Shown here: positions 7,794-36,829 of the stretch, in pieces
Layout of the letters: each line of letters starts with the position of its first letter
How positions within the stretch are numbered: the stretch's first letter is position 1
Assembly: GCF_900163745.1 (NCBI RefSeq)
Contig: NZ_FUKJ01000045.1
Coordinates: 1 to 38,183, forward strand
Length of the DNA: 38,183 bases
Direction: 5' to 3'
Origin: Crenothrix polyspora
Lineage (GTDB): Bacteria; Pseudomonadota; Gammaproteobacteria; Methylococcales; Methylomonadaceae
Position numbers and translations under genes: made by a program
The notes under the pieces: generated by a model
The model's database searches: none
The model's input: only the letters and a program-made list of their open reading frames with translations
Told to the model about the DNA's origin: nothing

Positions 7794-7849
7794 ATAGGTA
7801 ATGTATGGGTTACATTTATTTTGTATTGAAGTTAATGCGGTGATGTGCG

Positions 7850-9135
7850 CTTTTAATCCCTTCGGAACAGGGAATGGTTTCTGAGAACTTACCCTCCCCC
7901 TTTAAAGAAGGGCGATTTGTCTTAATCCCTTCGGAACAGGGAATGGTTTCTGAGTGAACAACTAGATGTTGAAATGAACAAAACAGAAGTCTTAATCCCT
8001 TCGGAACAGGGAATGGTTTCTGAGAGAAGAGGAAGAAGCAGCACCTGCCCCTATTAGGTCTTAATCCCTTCGGAACAGGGAATGGTTTCTGAGTAAACAA
8101 AACTGACCTGTTGAAATCTTTGTTAGTGTCTTAATCCCTTCGGAACAGGGAATGGTTTCTGAGTCAAGGTACTGCGTGGTATGGTGGAGCCTCAATTGTC
8201 TTAATCCCTTCGGAACAGGGAATGGTTTCTGAGTGAAAAAGTTACTTTTATTGGCAAGCGTTTTGCTGTCTTAATCCCTTCGGAACAGGGAATGGTTTCT
8301 GAGCATACACCTCGAACGTGCTTTTCCTTACTCGATAGTCTTAATCCCTTCGGAACAGGGAATGGTTTCTGAGACGACGATCGCGACGCGTTATTGGCAG
8401 AGCTATGTCTTAATCCCTTCGGAACAGGGAATGGTTTCTGAGAGTTAGTGCCGACCTGTATGGTGATACTGTAATCGTCTTAATCCCTTCGGAACAGGGA
8501 ATGGTTTCTGAGTAAACGCGTACGGTAAGACCTATTTCACCTCGCAGTCTTAATCCCTTCGGAACAGGGAATGGTTTCTGAGAAAAACAGCCTTAAATTG
8601 CGTTGGCTTTCGAGCGTCTTAATCCCTTCGGAACAGGGAATGGTTTCTGAGTCATTAATCGGAAACCAATTCGGTAGCCTAACCGTCTTAATCCCTTCGG
8701 AACAGGGAATGGTTTCTGAGCTATGTTACTGGTAGCGAGTACACGCAAGATAAAGTCTTAATCCCTTCGGAACAGGGAATGGTTTCTGAGACTAGAGTCT
8801 GGTGCAGTTTCTCCGGTAGTAATAGTCTTAATCCCTTCGGAACAGGGAATGGTTTCTGAGATTAACAGCAAGCCAGGTTCAGACTTCGCAACGCGTCTTA
8901 ATCCCTTCGGAACAGGGAATGGTTTCTGAGAACGCCTCAACGTTTAATCAAACTTCGTAACAGTCTTAATCCCTTCGGAACAGGGAATGGTTTCTGAGTC
9001 ATATAGACCGATGTTTACTGGTGTGTTACTGGTCTTAATCCCTTCGGAACAGGGAATGGTTTCTGAGGACACGTCCTACCGAGCTATTTCCTCCATTCAG
9101 TCTTAATCCCTTCGGAACAGGGAATGGTTTCTGAG
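7850..9135 (-). CRISPR. CRISPR array, 19 repeats and 18 spacers, type III-A locus
   Basis: Nineteen 36-bp repeats alternate with 18 spacers of 32-34 bp. On the plus strand each repeat begins GTCTTAATCCCTTCGG and ends GGAATGGTTTCTGAG; TCCCT and AGGGA form a short stem around a 7-nt loop. Read on the minus strand the repeat ends in ATTAAGAC, the right form for the 8-nt 5' handle of a type III crRNA. Eighteen repeats look identical; the one at 7850-7885 differs in its first and third plus-strand bases, as expected for the leader-distal end. This and the promoter at 9266-9294 place the leader at the cas2 side, so the newest spacer is next to 9100 and the oldest at 7886-7918. Confidence 0.98.
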
Positions 9136-9298
9136 CGCACGATCGTAGAAGCTATTATAAATCAATACACTACAGATACCTTTATATATCCTTGATTTTA
9201 AAGAGCTTATCATTGTCGATTTTTCCTTTGAAGTGTGCTGGCCAGACTCAGTCAGCACAATTTTTATTCTATAAAACAAACGGTTATTTTGCAAGCGA
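9136..9298 (-). promoter_or_regulatory. CRISPR leader
   Basis: This 163-bp AT-rich stretch lies between the cas2 stop and the first (leader-proximal) repeat. It contains a promoter reading into the array: TTGCAA (9289-9294), 17 bp, TAGAAT (9266-9271), with a predicted start near 9258. Apparent reading frames here are not supported by coding features. Its position beside cas1-cas2 fits spacer integration at the 9135 end. Confidence 0.75.
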
Positions 9299-28044: not shown

Positions 28045-28489
28045 GTTAAATTTCAGTAACCCGCCTTATGATTATTAAGAACGTATCTTAACAATCGAAT
28101 GGAATAGGCTTATTTTATTGCATCGGACAGTGACACCCTAACTGGCAATAACCGCCTTCGTGCCATTGCTTAAGATTATGCTAACCTTAATGAATATATC
28201 GGGTGTAACCGTTCAGTCCCCCTCTTTCAAAAAGAGGGGTTAGGGGAGATTTTTTAAATAAATCCCCCTCAATCCCCCTTTTTCAAAGGGGGAGGTGAAT
28301 ACTTACCATCGGGTTTGTTTTAACTGATATTTACCCGTTTATCCTAGCTGAATGAAGTTTAGCGAAAACAGGCAAGACAAGCAGATTTTTATGCACAGTG
28401 GACTTTCACCGATTTGCTTACTATCATGCCAAAAAGACTTCGTCGATTATACCAAACGCTACCTTTTATAGAGCGCTTAAGGAGACATA
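28045..28489. other. Divergent APE intergenic region
   Basis: 445 bp between the two divergent halves of the cluster. Besides the repeat pair at 28217-28295 no gene is seen. Promoters for both operons should lie here but no pair of boxes stands out. Confidence 0.5.
28217..28295. repeat. Inverted pair of REP-like repeats
   Basis: Unit A (about 28217-28252) reads CCCCTCTTTCAAAAAGAGGG, then GGTTAGGGGAGATTT. Unit B (about 28259-28295), on the opposite strand, reads CCTCCCCCTTTGAAAAAGGG, then GGATTGAGGGGGATTT. Each has its own hairpin and they face each other, a BIME-like arrangement. Relatives occur at 3187-3206 region, in the coding sequence at 34359-34407 and in a CRISPR spacer at 7886-7918. 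Confidence 0.75.
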
Positions 28490-30780: not shown

Positions 30781-32040
30781 TTAATTTGGATCATCATAAA
30801 AACGTTGTCTTAATTCCTGGGCAATATAATATTCATTCAAGGTTTTAATCAGTTGTTTGCCCATAGCGTGAGCCAAATTGACTGGAACAGCGTTACCGAT
30901 TTGTTTATAAATTTGATTCATTGAACCTTTAAACTGCCAATCATCAGGGAAGGTTTGTATTCTTGCGTATTCTCGGGTCGTAAAAGGCCGAGTTTCTTCG
31001 GGATGACAGCGCTCGGTTTGTTTTTGCGCTGGTGAAGTAGTCAGTGTTAAACACGGTTCATCCCAATGTATTCGCCTTGCCATGCCTGTTTTGCCGCCAC
31101 CCAAATAAAAGCTTTTTAGCATGTATTCTTTCTGCACATCCAAGGGTAAATCCCGCCAATAACCACCGGCAGGAACCATAGACATGATTTGTTGTTTCCT
31201 GAGTGGATAAGCCTGTCCAGAAGCTAAGGGCACATCGCAATCATAAAGCGGCCCTGCTTTTAACGCATGTTTTAATGAATAAACCTCGTTATGAGGTTTT
31301 GGGTAGGAAAACTTAAGACCTAGGTCTTTTTTTAAACCGACTAATAGTAAACGCTCTCTTTTTTGGGGGACCTGGTAGAAAATAGCTTTTAATATTTGAG
31401 GCGGAATAACGTCATAACCCAAATCATCCAAAATGTCTTTCATGCCAGCTAATGTTTTTCCGTTATCATGCGTACATAAGCCACGGACATTTTCACCCAC
31501 ACAAATTAATGGCTGTATTTCTTTGACTACTCTTGCAAATTCGTAAAACAATGTGCCTCTCGCATCCTCAAGACCTCTTTTTTTACCTGCGTAACTAAAG
31601 GCTTGGCAAGGAAATCCACCTGTGACTACATCAATTTTGCCTTGATGGTCAGAAAAGGAAACATGGCTAACATCACCTTCAATAACTCGCCAATGAGGTC
31701 TATTAGCCCTAAGCGTTTCACAAGCCCAATGATCCAGTTCGTTGAGTGTGTGGCAGTGTAATCCTGCTTTTTCTAAACCAAGAGCCAGTCCTCCTGCACC
31801 GGCAAATAATTCGACCACGGAAAATGGGCGTATCGGCCGAAACTGAAATTCGTTTTCTTCTGAGGGATCAAATAAAAACTTAGAAGCCTCGAAGTTTTTC
31901 AAGGATTCTAAAGTATATCTGCGATAATTATTAGGCAAACGAATCGGCGCTAGCCTACCTGTAACATCCCAACGCCTGAGAGTTTCTTTAGAAACAGAAA
32001 GTAAGTGCGCCACTTCAGACAGCGTATAGGATTTTTCCAT
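30781..32040 (-). CDS. DNA (cytosine-5) methyltransferase with MerR-type HTH N-terminus
   Basis: A 419-residue m5C methyltransferase. Residues 1-55 form a MerR/excisionase-like domain (YTLSEVAHLLSVSKETLRRW, RLPNNYRRYTLESLKNF). The catalytic part shows motif I ELFAGAGGLALGLEKAG, motif IV VTGGFPCQAFSYAGKKRGLE with the nucleophilic Cys, motif VI ICVGENVRGL, motif VIII QVPQKRERLLLVGL, and motif X IYKQIGNAVPVNLAHAMGKQ. It protects DNA from the divergent restriction enzyme. The extra N-terminal domain suggests that it also regulates the module. It reads against the APE operon and looks imported. Confidence 0.93.
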   Translation of the reverse strand: MEKSYTLSEVAHLLSVSKETLRRWDVTGRLAPIRLPNNYRRYTLESLKNFEASKFLFDPSEENEFQFRPIRPFSVVELFAGAGGLALGLEKAGLHCHTLNELDHWACETLRANRPHWRVIEGDVSHVSFSDHQGKIDVVTGGFPCQAFSYAGKKRGLEDARGTLFYEFARVVKEIQPLICVGENVRGLCTHDNGKTLAGMKDILDDLGYDVIPPQILKAIFYQVPQKRERLLLVGLKKDLGLKFSYPKPHNEVYSLKHALKAGPLYDCDVPLASGQAYPLRKQQIMSMVPAGGYWRDLPLDVQKEYMLKSFYLGGGKTGMARRIHWDEPCLTLTTSPAQKQTERCHPEETRPFTTREYARIQTFPDDWQFKGSMNQIYKQIGNAVPVNLAHAMGKQLIKTLNEYYIAQELRQRFYDDPN

Positions 32041-32051
32041 TTAACATTACT

Positions 32052-32090
32052 CAACATTGGTCATGGTTATTAAAATTATACCCGATGTTG
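32052..32090. promoter_or_regulatory. Possible operator between the R and M genes
   Basis: CAACAT (32052-32057) and ATGTTG (32085-32090) form an inverted repeat in the short gap between divergent starts, with a further AACATT at 32043. This is where the HTH domain of the methyltransferase would be expected to bind. Confidence 0.35.
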
Positions 32091-32107
32091 ATATGAGAAC
32101 AAAGATA

Positions 32108-32824
32108 ATGACGGAAAACGAAAAAACTCAGATACTTCGTAATGCACAACAATGGTTTAAAAACAGCATCGCCAGCCAACATATTATCAATGCGAAAAAA
32201 CTAACCAATCCTGCCGAATTTAATATCAATCCATTTTTAACAATTTATCTGGCAAATTTTTTAACGGGTAACTCAAACCCTGAAAGTATTGCTAAAGCAC
32301 TTATTTATCCCAGAATTTTAGGCACATCTATTACCACTTCCTTTGGAACCCATATTCAAAGATTTACCGGAGAAGTACTGTCATCATTTGGAAGCACTAC
32401 TCATGGTATCGATATTGAGTTTATAGATCAGATAGATGGTTTTAAAAAATACTGCCAGTTAAAATCAGGGCCGAATACTATCAACAAAGACGATGTTGAA
32501 ACCATTGCCGGGCACTTTTCGAGCATTATTAACTTATCCAGAACCAACAATTTACGCGTTACCCATTCAGATTTATGCGTGGGTATTATTTATGGGGAAG
32601 AACGCGATTTAAGCAGTCACTATAAGAGAATCACCAGCCAATATCACTATTCCGTCATCATTGGCCAGGATTTTTGGTATCGACTCACAGGTGATGAACA
32701 CTTTTACCATGATCTGATAAAAAGTATTGGTGAGGTAGCAATAGAGGCGAATTTTACCCAAGAATTAGATACGGTTATTGCAGAACTCGCTAGCAAACCA
32801 GAAATTATTGAATTATCTTGTTAA
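32108..32824 (+). CDS. Type II restriction endonuclease, Eco47II/Sau96I-like family
   Basis: About 238 residues, PD-(D/E)XK-like: PFLTIYLANFLTGNSNPESI, AKALIYPRILGTSITTSFGT, HGIDIEFIDQIDGFKKYCQL then KSGPN (acidic residue, then Q-L-K core), and FWYRLTGDEHFYHDLIKSIG. This layout recalls the Eco47II family (GGNCC); I am fairly but not fully sure of the family, and the site is inference. The ATG at 32108 (MTENEKTQ) with GAGAA upstream is preferred to the ATGs at 32057, 32063 and 32093. Divergent from the methyltransferase; its 3' end lies 52 bp before the next APE gene. Confidence 0.82.
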   Translation: MTENEKTQILRNAQQWFKNSIASQHIINAKKLTNPAEFNINPFLTIYLANFLTGNSNPESIAKALIYPRILGTSITTSFGTHIQRFTGEVLSSFGSTTHGIDIEFIDQIDGFKKYCQLKSGPNTINKDDVETIAGHFSSIINLSRTNNLRVTHSDLCVGIIYGEERDLSSHYKRITSQYHYSVIIGQDFWYRLTGDEHFYHDLIKSIGEVAIEANFTQELDTVIAELASKPEIIELSC

Positions 32825-32876: not shown

Positions 32877-33428
32877 ATGCGTACACTAATAAACAGCCTC
32901 ATCGGCCTATTAACCATGCTTTACCCGTTTACGGTTTATTTCGGGATACGTTATTTAGAGCCCTGGAAAATAGCCGGCATTCTGGCCGCATTATTGGGCA
33001 TCAGACTGATTGCCAGTTATTCTGTTAAACATTGGAGCAGCCCACTGTTACTGGTCGGTATGGTTTATTTTAGTTTTGCCATCTGGAGCAATGAGATACT
33101 GACATTACGGTTTTATCCCGCCATCGCCAATGCGGCAATGTTGCTGCTTTTTTCATGGACATTGTTTTCACCACCCAGCTTAATTGAACGGCTGGCTAGA
33201 ATCCAGCATCCCGACTTGCCACCCGAAGGTGTTATTTATACACGTCGGGTAACCCAGATCTGGTGCGGTTTTTTCATTATCAACGGCAGTCTTGCATTAA
33301 TGACAGCACTTTGGAGCAGCATAGAAATTTGGAGTTTATATAATGGTTTGATCGCTTATTTATTGATGGGCATCTTGTTCGTTGGCGAATACATCGTCAG
33401 GATAAAAACCCAGAAACATGTCCGATAA
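32877..33428 (+). CDS. APE-cluster integral membrane protein (COG4648-like, ApeG-like)
   Basis: A 183-residue membrane protein with about five hydrophobic helices (LIGLLTMLYPFTVYFGIRYL, WKIAGILAALLGIRLIASY, LLVGMVYFSFAIWS, AMLLLFSWTLFS, LIAYLLMGILFVGEYIV) and the loop IQHPDLPPEGVIYTRRVTQI, known from the COG4648 membrane proteins of APE clusters. Its function is not established. The start is the ATG at 32877; the longer frame from 32778 runs into the restriction gene. It overlaps the ligase gene by 11 bp. Confidence 0.8.
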   Translation: MRTLINSLIGLLTMLYPFTVYFGIRYLEPWKIAGILAALLGIRLIASYSVKHWSSPLLLVGMVYFSFAIWSNEILTLRFYPAIANAAMLLLFSWTLFSPPSLIERLARIQHPDLPPEGVIYTRRVTQIWCGFFIINGSLALMTALWSSIEIWSLYNGLIAYLLMGILFVGEYIVRIKTQKHVR

Positions 33429-35154
33429 CGTTATCACCCTGTCAGGGTGCTTACTGACAGAAAGACATCCTACCCGCAAAATTGCTTACCATGACCGGCA
33501 ATACTTTTACGCCGATACGTTTAATGCAGCAGTACGATACTGGGTAACACAACTGCAAATACAGCCATTTGAGCGTTATGCGGTATACACGGAAGATGCC
33601 TATCCATTTGCCGTGCTATTATTCGCGTTGTTCCATGCTGGCAAACAAGTCTGGATAGCGGGTAATAACCGCCCAGGTACCGCGCAGCAACTTCTGCAAC
33701 ACGGTTGCCAGTTAATCGGCGACTGGAATGCAGCGCAACCGTTTGATTATCATCTAAACTCAACAGACTATTCTAATTTACCTTTATCACCCTTAAACCT
33801 GACAGAAACCAGTCTGGTGATTTTCACCTCCGGTTCTACCGGACAACCTAAACCCATAGAAAAATGTCTGATTCAGTTCCAGCTCGAAATCGCTAACCTG
33901 GAAAAGCAGTGGGGATCGCTACTGGGTGATTCGGAAATTTTAGCCACTGTCAGTCATCAGCATATTTACGGCTTGCTGTTTCGCGTGTTATGGCCACTTT
34001 CGGCAGGCCGGTGTTTTCACAGTTCGATTTATATCAACCCTGAAACGCTGATTAACAACAGTCAGGATATTGCCGCCTGCTGGGTTGCCAGTCCCGCGCA
34101 TTTAAAGCGTTTAGATCAGAATTCACCTTGGCAGAGTATTGCCAGATTAACCGCTATTTTCAGTTCTGGCGGTGTATTGTACGAATCTACTAAACAGCAA
34201 ATTACTACACATAGCGCACAACAGGTGATTGAAATTTACGGTAGTTCAGAAACTGGCGGTATTGCCTGGCGACAACATGACCCGCTTTGGCAGCTATTTG
34301 ATGGCATGCATTTAAGCTGTGTTAACAACAGATGGTTGCTGCATTCGCCTTATCTAAGCTCTCTTTTCTCCTCTCTTTGTAAAAAGGGGGCTGGGGGAGA
34401 TTTTCAATTAGAGGATCAAATTAGCTTACAAGAAGATGACCGATTTATTTTGCAAGGTCGACTGGATCGCATCGTTAAAATAGAAGAAAAACGTCTATCC
34501 TTATCTGAACTGGAACGACATTTAATCGACATTCCTGGGGTAGCTGATGCGTTTACCGTACCTTTAGCTAAAAGCAGGGATGTGATTGGCGCAGCCCTGG
34601 TATTAACTGAAGCCGGTTTTGAACAACTTAAAAATCATGGCCGAAACGCTTTCATTAAACACTTACGCACACAGCTACATCAATGGTTTGATGCCGTCGT
34701 CCTGCCAAGAAAATGGCTGTTTATGGACGGTATGTCGTTAACATCACAAGGTAAAATTGACCAGCACATACTAAACACGTTGCTCAATACAGATAATCAA
34801 AAATTACCGCAAGTGCAAAGCGTTTACATCAGCGCCAATGGTGTTGAATTAGCGCTCAAAGTGCCTGAGGACTTGATTTATTTTCCCGATCATTTTGCCG
34901 ATTACCCGATTTTGCCGGGTGTGGTACAAATAAGCTGGGCAGAGTATTTCGGTCGCTTGTTTTTTAGCCTTGAACAGCCGTTTTTAACGATGGAAGTCAT
35001 TAAATTTGTAAAACCCATTCAGCCGGGAAATGAGCTAACGTTGCTGCTTAACTGGAACACAACGACTCATAAACTGCTGTTTAACTTCGGTTCAGGTGAG
35101 GTGGCGTATAGTTCGGGCAGACTCATTTACACAGCCAAAACGAGACCACCATGA
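33418..35154 (+). CDS. Aryl-acid AMP ligase fused to a hot-dog dehydratase (ApeH-ApeI fusion type)
   Basis: A 578-residue two-domain enzyme. The adenylation domain has TSLVIFTSGSTGQPKPIEK (A3), EIYGSSETGGIAWRQH (A5) and ILQGRLDRIVKIEEKRLSL (A8 hinge); it would activate a hydroxycinnamate-like starter and load the ACP. The C-terminal 110 residues are FabA/FabZ-like (YFPDHFADYPILPGVVQISW with the catalytic-type His). Between LLHSPYLS and the A8 region lies an in-frame insert (about residues 315-330) made by a REP-like repeat. It overlaps the membrane-protein gene before it and the glycosyltransferase after it. Confidence 0.88.
   Translation: MSDNVITLSGCLLTERHPTRKIAYHDRQYFYADTFNAAVRYWVTQLQIQPFERYAVYTEDAYPFAVLLFALFHAGKQVWIAGNNRPGTAQQLLQHGCQLIGDWNAAQPFDYHLNSTDYSNLPLSPLNLTETSLVIFTSGSTGQPKPIEKCLIQFQLEIANLEKQWGSLLGDSEILATVSHQHIYGLLFRVLWPLSAGRCFHSSIYINPETLINNSQDIAACWVASPAHLKRLDQNSPWQSIARLTAIFSSGGVLYESTKQQITTHSAQQVIEIYGSSETGGIAWRQHDPLWQLFDGMHLSCVNNRWLLHSPYLSSLFSSLCKKGAGGDFQLEDQISLQEDDRFILQGRLDRIVKIEEKRLSLSELERHLIDIPGVADAFTVPLAKSRDVIGAALVLTEAGFEQLKNHGRNAFIKHLRTQLHQWFDAVVLPRKWLFMDGMSLTSQGKIDQHILNTLLNTDNQKLPQVQSVYISANGVELALKVPEDLIYFPDHFADYPILPGVVQISWAEYFGRLFFSLEQPFLTMEVIKFVKPIQPGNELTLLLNWNTTTHKLLFNFGSGEVAYSSGRLIYTAKTRPP
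34359..34407 (+). repeat. REP-like repeat inside the ligase-dehydratase gene
   Basis: The stretch contains CTCCTCTCTTTGTAAAAAGG then GGGCTGGGGGAGATTTTCAA, the same plan as the repeat units at 28217-28295 (stem, loop, stem, then GGGGAGATTT). It is read through in frame and adds SLFSSLCKKGAGGDF to the protein. Confidence 0.7.
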
Positions 35155-35885: not shown

Positions 35886-36829
35886 AAAATTCAGCACACT
35901 GGGCGCAAGTACAAGAACATAGCTTTGTATGGGGCATGCGCTTTTTGTTATGGGTTTATTTGGTGTGTGGCCGCACGGTTTTACAATTGTTTTTATACCC
36001 CGTAGTCATTTATTACTGGTTGATTAACCGGTCAGCTCGACAAGCCAGTCAAGATTATCTGAACAGAGTGGCAGATTTTGCCCCGTCATTAAAACTGCAC
36101 AGCAGTTTATTATGGAGCTACCGGCACTTTATCAGTTTTGCCAATGCCATTACCGACAAACTCGCCGCTTGGTCTGGAACGCTGTTACGAGCGGATGTAC
36201 AGTATTATGGCCGCGATGAACTCGTCGCTATACTTCGGTGCGGGCAAGGTGTGGTATTGCTGGGTTCACATCTGGGTAATCTTGAAGTATGCCGTGTGGT
36301 CGCTGATTTTGACAAAACCATCCACATTAATGTCCTGGTCCATACCAAACATGCCGAAAAATTCAACCAGCTGCTCAATAAGACCAGCGACAACAGCCGG
36401 TTAAATTTGATACAGGTTACCAACATTACCGCCGCCACTGCTATGCTTCTGAGTGAGAAAATTGATGCCGGTGAACTGGTTATTATTGCTGCAGACCGCA
36501 CGCCCATCAGCAGTCAGCGCAGCCAGCAACGTGTCAGCAACGTTGACTTCTTGGGTGCTACAGCGGCATTTCCACAAGGGCCGTTCATTTTGGCGGCTTT
36601 GCTAAAATGTCCGGTTTATACGGTATTCTGTTTAAAACAACACAATAAGCATGTGATTTATTTCGACCACTTTAGCGATATGCTGAACTTGCCCAGAAAA
36701 ACCCGCGAACAGGCCATGCAGCACATCATCCAACATTATGCAGAACGCCTACAGACGTACTGCCTGAAAGAACCATTACAATGGTTCAATTTTTTTGATT
36801 TTTGGCGTGTGGCAGATGACGACAAATAA
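35882..36829 (+). CDS. Lipid-A-biosynthesis-type (HtrB/LpxL-like) acyltransferase of the APE cluster
   Basis: A 315-residue membrane acyltransferase with an N-terminal hydrophobic segment (MRFLLWVYLVCGRTVLQLFL) and QGVVLLGSHLGNLEVCRVVA, the H-X4-E catalytic motif of the LpxL superfamily; VIIAADRTPISSQRSQQRVS and FPQGPFILAALLKCPVYTVF follow. It likely acylates the lipid anchor. Starts inside the stop of the glycosyltransferase gene; its own end overlaps the ammonia lyase start by 14 bp. Confidence 0.87.
   Translation: MKNSAHWAQVQEHSFVWGMRFLLWVYLVCGRTVLQLFLYPVVIYYWLINRSARQASQDYLNRVADFAPSLKLHSSLLWSYRHFISFANAITDKLAAWSGTLLRADVQYYGRDELVAILRCGQGVVLLGSHLGNLEVCRVVADFDKTIHINVLVHTKHAEKFNQLLNKTSDNSRLNLIQVTNITAATAMLLSEKIDAGELVIIAADRTPISSQRSQQRVSNVDFLGATAAFPQGPFILAALLKCPVYTVFCLKQHNKHVIYFDHFSDMLNLPRKTREQAMQHIIQHYAERLQTYCLKEPLQWFNFFDFWRVADDDK

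Follow-up and report, generated by a model that had tools for sequence, protein, structure and literature searches.

The window analysed here is a 38,183-nucleotide stretch of DNA from Crenothrix polyspora (contig NZ_FUKJ01000045.1). Positions 33418..35154 of its forward strand encode a protein of 578 aa in which, as judged by Pfam and translation, an AMP ligase (AMP-binding domain, residues 122-288) is fused to an ApeI-like dehydratase (residues 472-558). The protein carries the features of an ANL adenylate-forming ligase, specifically the AMP-binding fold, a conserved P-loop, the A7 Asp and the A8 hinge (Pfam and alignment). Among the 50 Foldseek matches listed for a model of the ligase, all are adenylate-forming enzymes wherever the title is informative (best E 1.4e-22), and they include acyl-CoA synthetases, NRPS adenylation domains and aryl-CoA ligases. 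The aryl context assigned to this gene in the original prediction is sound, because among curated NCBIfam models the top match is 4-coumarate-CoA ligase (well under that model's cut-off) and because a gene for an ammonia-lyase of the histidine/tyrosine/phenylalanine type lies downstream at 36795.

Elsewhere in the window, a C5 cytosine methylase with a MerR-type N-terminus and an EcoO109I-like restriction enzyme are encoded at 30781-32824, amid the biosynthetic genes of the aryl-polyene-type cluster. A CRISPR-like array at 7831-9139 comprises 19 copies of GTCTTAATCCCTTCGGAACAGGGAATGGTTTCTGAG, the first of which is a variant, spaced at 68-70 nt.

A repeat-like stretch within the ligase gene

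The ligase reading frame is open throughout, including a stretch on the forward strand (34370..34405) that matches a dispersed palindromic repeat. Specifically, an nhmmer profile built from 27 other copies in the same genome detects positions 34370-34405 with an E value of 6.1e-7, and an independent profile, made from 55 units that come from other genera, matches positions 34375-34404 (E 3.5e-7). A 26-base core of the stretch occurs once in the window when up to 3 mismatches are allowed, and was matched by none of 100 shuffles. Alignments place this stretch in an extra linker, SSLFSSLCKKGAGGDF, that spans residues 314-329 (34357..34404, forward strand) between SPYL and QLEDQ. The peptide SLCKKGAGGDF encoded here corresponds, by eye, to the second of two frames in which the repeats are translated. 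The two profiles, the alignments and the open frame thus bear out the proposal that a segment of repeat origin is read in frame without a stop.

The inserted unit is a degenerate palindrome (34358..34406) that was recognized by eye and in an RNA fold, where its two arms pair with the inclusion of G-U pairs. This folding is no better than that of shuffled sequences (z only -0.78 as RNA and -0.55 as DNA), indicating that the palindrome is largely decayed. Such poor folding is expected of an old copy, yet it weakens the evidence. The match was originally described as about 49 bp long, which holds for the degenerate palindrome, whereas the recognizable part of the repeat covers 30-36 bp.

An 81-bp query yielded 34 matches, itself included, in the 3.53-Mb draft genome, most of which correspond to an element of ~100 bp with two hairpins. 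These copies constitute a dispersed palindromic family; in the relatives G109, G115 and G127, searches with their own ligase inserts give 44, 32 and 30 matches, respectively. A full-length intergenic copy with both hairpins is located in the window at 28215..28295, as determined by profile searches and DNA folding. The 27-copy profile matches its two parts at 28215-28257 (E 1.2e-16) and 28292-28258 (E 6.9e-6), and the segment 28215-28300 folds as DNA with a z score of -4.5. Two of the 29 non-ligase copies in this genome lie in frames of at least 100 codons, which does not make the donor family there an obviously coding one, and the ligase copy is the only one seen in a clear gene. This scarcity of coding copies fits the smaller number of open frames per unit, which averages 1.6 of 6 for the canonical units of the window's genome (which, as cut, exceed the others by 6 bp on average) and 3.9 of 6 for those of genera g14 and g15.

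Repeat inserts in homologous ligases

The gene was detected at E<=1e-100 in 83 of the 237 genomes searched from a family of relatives that we take to be Methylomonadaceae or nearby. The relatives include Methylobacter psychrophilus, the 'Methylobacter tundripaludum' MAG Bin_16_1, and further Methylobacter and other Methylococcales. From the 83 genomes with the gene, 63 genes were aligned, one per genome; L059, L127, L128, L068 and duplicates were excluded from the count, and the sequences of 17 of the 83 genomes were absent. The linker between SPYL and QxxDQ measures 4-6 residues in 46 of the 63 genes and 8 or more in 16, and is unmeasurable in one (G002). Lengths span 4 to 122 residues, with 16 in the window. 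Against the original estimate of about 15 added residues, the net gain relative to the 46 homologues with 4-6 residues is about 10-12. Alignment with these uninterrupted homologues defines the insert as residues 314-329, and no homologue among the 63 has the same residues without repeat similarity. L131 (KAGLVGDFQLEDQ) offers the weakest comparison; its DNA gives a repeat-profile E value of 5.5 yet has the look of a worn palindrome.

At this very codon site, clear repeat inserts are also present in G002 and in five genomes that belong to two further genera. In G002, a member of the same genus, the ligase gene is split over two contigs precisely at the insert, with the repeat at each end. One contig finishes with TTTCCCCCCCCCTTTTACAA and the other begins with GGGGGGGGGCTGGGGGGGCTTTTCAATTGG, while the join itself is unseen. 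Since the G002 gene breaks off at the repeat, a private assembly error in the window's genome is an unlikely source of the insert, which probably arose before the two genomes diverged.

Repeat inserts at the identical codon site measure 32 (L115) and 53 residues (L126) in genus g14, and 43 (L125), 47 (L124) and 122 residues (L123) in genus g15. In L113, a reduced insert of 13 residues is found. Each of the five inserts from g14 and g15 matches the repeat that is dispersed in its own genome, and the composite fold of the L115 insert has a z score of -5.1. Furthermore, the 55-unit profile, which contains no ligase copies, produces 27 hits at E<0.5 among 64 ligase sequences, and every one of these hits (in nine sequences) falls in the loop directly after SPYL. 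The repeat-derived linker of L123 (G109, 1136-1537) contains internal near-tandem duplications, and is a repeat insertion that subsequently expanded.

Two other candidates at this site were set aside. The 26-residue linker of L051 (G004) matches well only at its own place in that genome, and a repeat origin was rejected; the loop is thus also able to grow by other means. Possible scars in sisters with short linkers, such as AATCCCC in L036, were considered too short to carry weight.

Origin and fate of the insert

The stretch in the window is a unit of this repeat, read in frame, at a site where G002 shares it and where two other genera carry repeat inserts. The account that we favor, and hold with good confidence, is that a unit of a dispersed non-autonomous palindromic repeat, with a G/C-rich hairpin of the CCCCCCTTTGTAAAAGGGGGGCTGGGGGGATTT type, entered the ligase gene in frame. 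The insertion point would be a short variable loop, which we take to lie between the A6 and A7 motifs, and the event would date back at least to the ancestor that the window's genome shares with G002 of the same genus. The unit would be translated as a flexible linker of ~16 residues and would have decayed since, being tolerated rather than selected in an enzyme that retains its conserved residues.

A tree of the 63 ligase genes was built without the insert columns. The minimum number of changes on this tree is five with the seven clear carriers and seven with 11 carriers. A single clade of all clear carriers is rejected (AU p 1.5e-42), and the g15 carriers as one clade are compatible with the tree (AU p 0.37). 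The tree and the change counts cannot separate several gains from one old gain followed by losses.

The strongest alternative is a history in which a single insertion occurred in the ancestor of g1, g12, g14 and g15 and was often lost or shortened, such that the loop is no hot spot. We regard this history as plausible, if somewhat doubtful. It would account for start and end codons that are identical in all inserts, for the worn palindrome in L131, and for short palindrome-like remains in sister genes (CCCTTTTGCAAAGGG in L032 and L106, profile E 0.027). Moreover, L124 and L125 share 90% identity along the whole of their inserts and the L123 spacer is similar-looking, which shows that the insert was passed on within g15. 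However, near sisters are among the 46 genes with 4-6 residues (L036, for example, stands beside L115 and L126), and these short linkers, coupled with the minimum of five to seven changes on the tree, mean that a single insertion requires many clean in-frame losses. The spacers of g14 and g15 also seem unrelated by eye. We infer that separate insertions, beyond one ancient insertion with losses, have hit this loop.

The fate of the insert within the enzyme was considered using an AlphaFold2 model made from 31 ligase sequences (mean pLDDT 87.5, pTM 0.84). In this structure model, a check that had been proposed, the insert falls in a low-confidence loop. Residues 311-330 have a pLDDT of 63-64 and form a loop flanked by strands 305-309 and 333-337, and residues 314-328 contain no helix or strand except at one residue. 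The model thus suggests that the insert loop is disordered. The catalytic-type residues are invariant among the 31 aligned sequences. D333, whose codon (34414..34416, forward strand) lies just after the insert, is invariant in this alignment and is presumably the A7 motif aspartate. The sequence GRLDRIVK (residues 347-354; 34456..34479, forward strand), in which R348 and D350-K354 are invariant, is taken to be the A8 hinge region (D350/K354). The earlier description of the insert as lying just ahead of the A8 hinge is loosely right; it precedes D333, and the hinge follows ~20 residues on. Judging from its sequence, in which the conserved residues are retained, the ligase is probably functional.

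The insert might instead be selected, by altering how the ligase docks or how its domains rotate, and thereby the loading of the aryl starter. Its position near the A7/A8 hinge region, its intact frame in the genome of the window and its presence in G002 as well are in keeping with this idea, which we nevertheless consider improbable. Homologues carry anywhere from 4 to 122 residues in this loop with their conserved motifs intact, which argues for tolerance, and the inserts have no conserved residues other than those of the repeat itself. In addition, a comparable insert in Rickettsia guanylate kinase (Gmk) leaves the enzyme active with a changed substrate affinity, and is reported in the accessible text of PMC2229807 to be neutral or slightly harmful. 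The suggested change in aryl starter loading is not supported. Nor does 'exapted' seem the appropriate word, as nothing indicates a role and the loop of L051 was lengthened without a repeat. Most likely, we are dealing with a tolerated insertion in a length-variable loop, and one that would be near-neutral.

Finally, mere chance similarity of a G-rich low-complexity linker to the repeat, which the shortness of the copy and its nonsignificant hairpin might favor, is hardly credible given that two independent profiles detect the stretch (E 6e-7 and 3.5e-7), that no shuffle of 100 reaches the core match, and that the site coincides exactly with clear repeat copies in other genera.

Repeats in other genes and comparison with known elements

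We surveyed 48 loci around non-ligase matches in the genomes G127, G103, G119, G123, G115 and G109. Because these are matches to two ligase-insert queries in six genomes, the survey is not a census. It contains 62 repeat clusters, of which 57 are stop-free within ORFs of at least 100 codons. The claim that such insertions into catalytic genes are rare is thus not upheld in these six relatives. Random spans from the same loci fall in ORFs in 94% of cases, indicating that genes are neither preferred nor avoided. Under a stricter rule (200 codons, with 30 on each side), 34 of the 62 clusters qualify versus 76% of random spans, because several repeats sit at the starts or ends of genes.

Host genes in the survey, named from Pfam families and by eye, encode CcmI, YfiH, a BioH-like hydrolase, MurG, an RluB-like protein and a ketoacyl synthase, and all 10 host proteins tried have Pfam families. 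In-frame copies therefore occur in several unrelated conserved genes of the relatives. The YfiH repeat occupies an identical site in four genomes, and that of MurG lies between its two domains. By eye, two frames are in use, PPFxKGGxGGI and PLCKRGxxGDF.

Several other observations were made in these loci. The ketoacyl synthase genes L177, L199, L214 and L189 carry a repeat at the same site in G127, G115, G109 and G103, respectively, and the repeat-bearing gene is ~11 kb from the ligase in G127, G115 and G109. In-frame units are found at the extreme N-termini of DNA polymerase I-like (L184, L191 and L207) and PabA/TrpG-type ORFs (L180 and L206; both named by eye from the peptide), where they may be untranslated leaders. 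Type I restriction subunit-like genes in G127 and G109 (L175 and L215; named by eye) have several repeat units within a few kb, and a composite repeat lies in frame within an MmeI-type restriction-modification enzyme (L186, G103:C125). A RAYT was considered as the mover of the repeat and rejected, since none of the 30 PF01797 (Y1 transposase) loci inspected (92 kb, from 44 PF01797 matches) has a profile hit at E<=0.01.

In the literature, protein-coding palindromes figure as a peculiarity first of Rickettsia and then also of some REP-rich species. No report of the methanotroph repeats was found in the open-access literature. It is nearly as probable as not that undescribed, coding-compatible palindromes invade conserved Methylomonadaceae genes in frame in an RPE-like manner (in at least g14 and g15, with a worn relic in g1), and that the ligase loop received its inserts independently in three or more genera, growing to 122 residues in one species. 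The striking aspect is that one loop is used repeatedly. These genomes provide a dense case in free-living methane oxidisers, in which orthologous sites are filled or empty in near sisters. Such pairs would allow one to measure how often selfish repeats become protein, and to learn which loops admit them. In annotation, PPFxKGG and LCKRGxxGDF peptides from these genomes are to be regarded as repeat-derived rather than as functional motifs.

Intragenic REPs are known from several species, and some of their clusters encode 43-82 residues (BMC Genomics 2013, PMC3733652); the accessible part of that paper does not contain 'Methylo'. The GTAG- and CGTC-tagged REPs described there are likewise small palindromes, often paired in opposite orientation and intragenic. 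In contrast, the methanotroph units have no end tag (neither tetranucleotide was seen by eye at the ends of the printed units) and no adjoining Y1 transposase (30 loci). As far as the available text of PMC2759123 extends (Delihas 2007), the enterobacterial elements RU-1/ERIC, RU-2 and RU-3 are also small, mobile and intragenic with open frames, but at 103-168 bp they are longer than the methanotroph units and differ in sequence. Coxiella QMITE1 and QMITE2 are small gammaproteobacterial elements that overlap ORFs, sometimes in frame; according to the accessible portion of PMC5896051, however, they are MITEs of 150-400 bp that reside mostly at other locations.

The closest parallel is with the Rickettsia palindromic elements (RPE; Ogata et al. 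2000, 2002), which are in-frame coding palindromes (PMC10969869, PMC2229807, in the text available); in-frame palindromes are also cited there for Wolbachia (PMC2229807). In both systems, short palindromic families lie in frame in many unrelated conserved genes, are translated and are mostly tolerated. RPE are 105-146 bp long, whereas the units described here are ~36 bp, single or paired with a spacer, and belong to other bacteria. The same-site ligase inserts, coupled with the 57 of 62 clusters that are stop-free in ORFs, indicate that the Methylomonadaceae repeats behave like the "protein-coding palindromes" of Rickettsia, a likeness judged by behavior.
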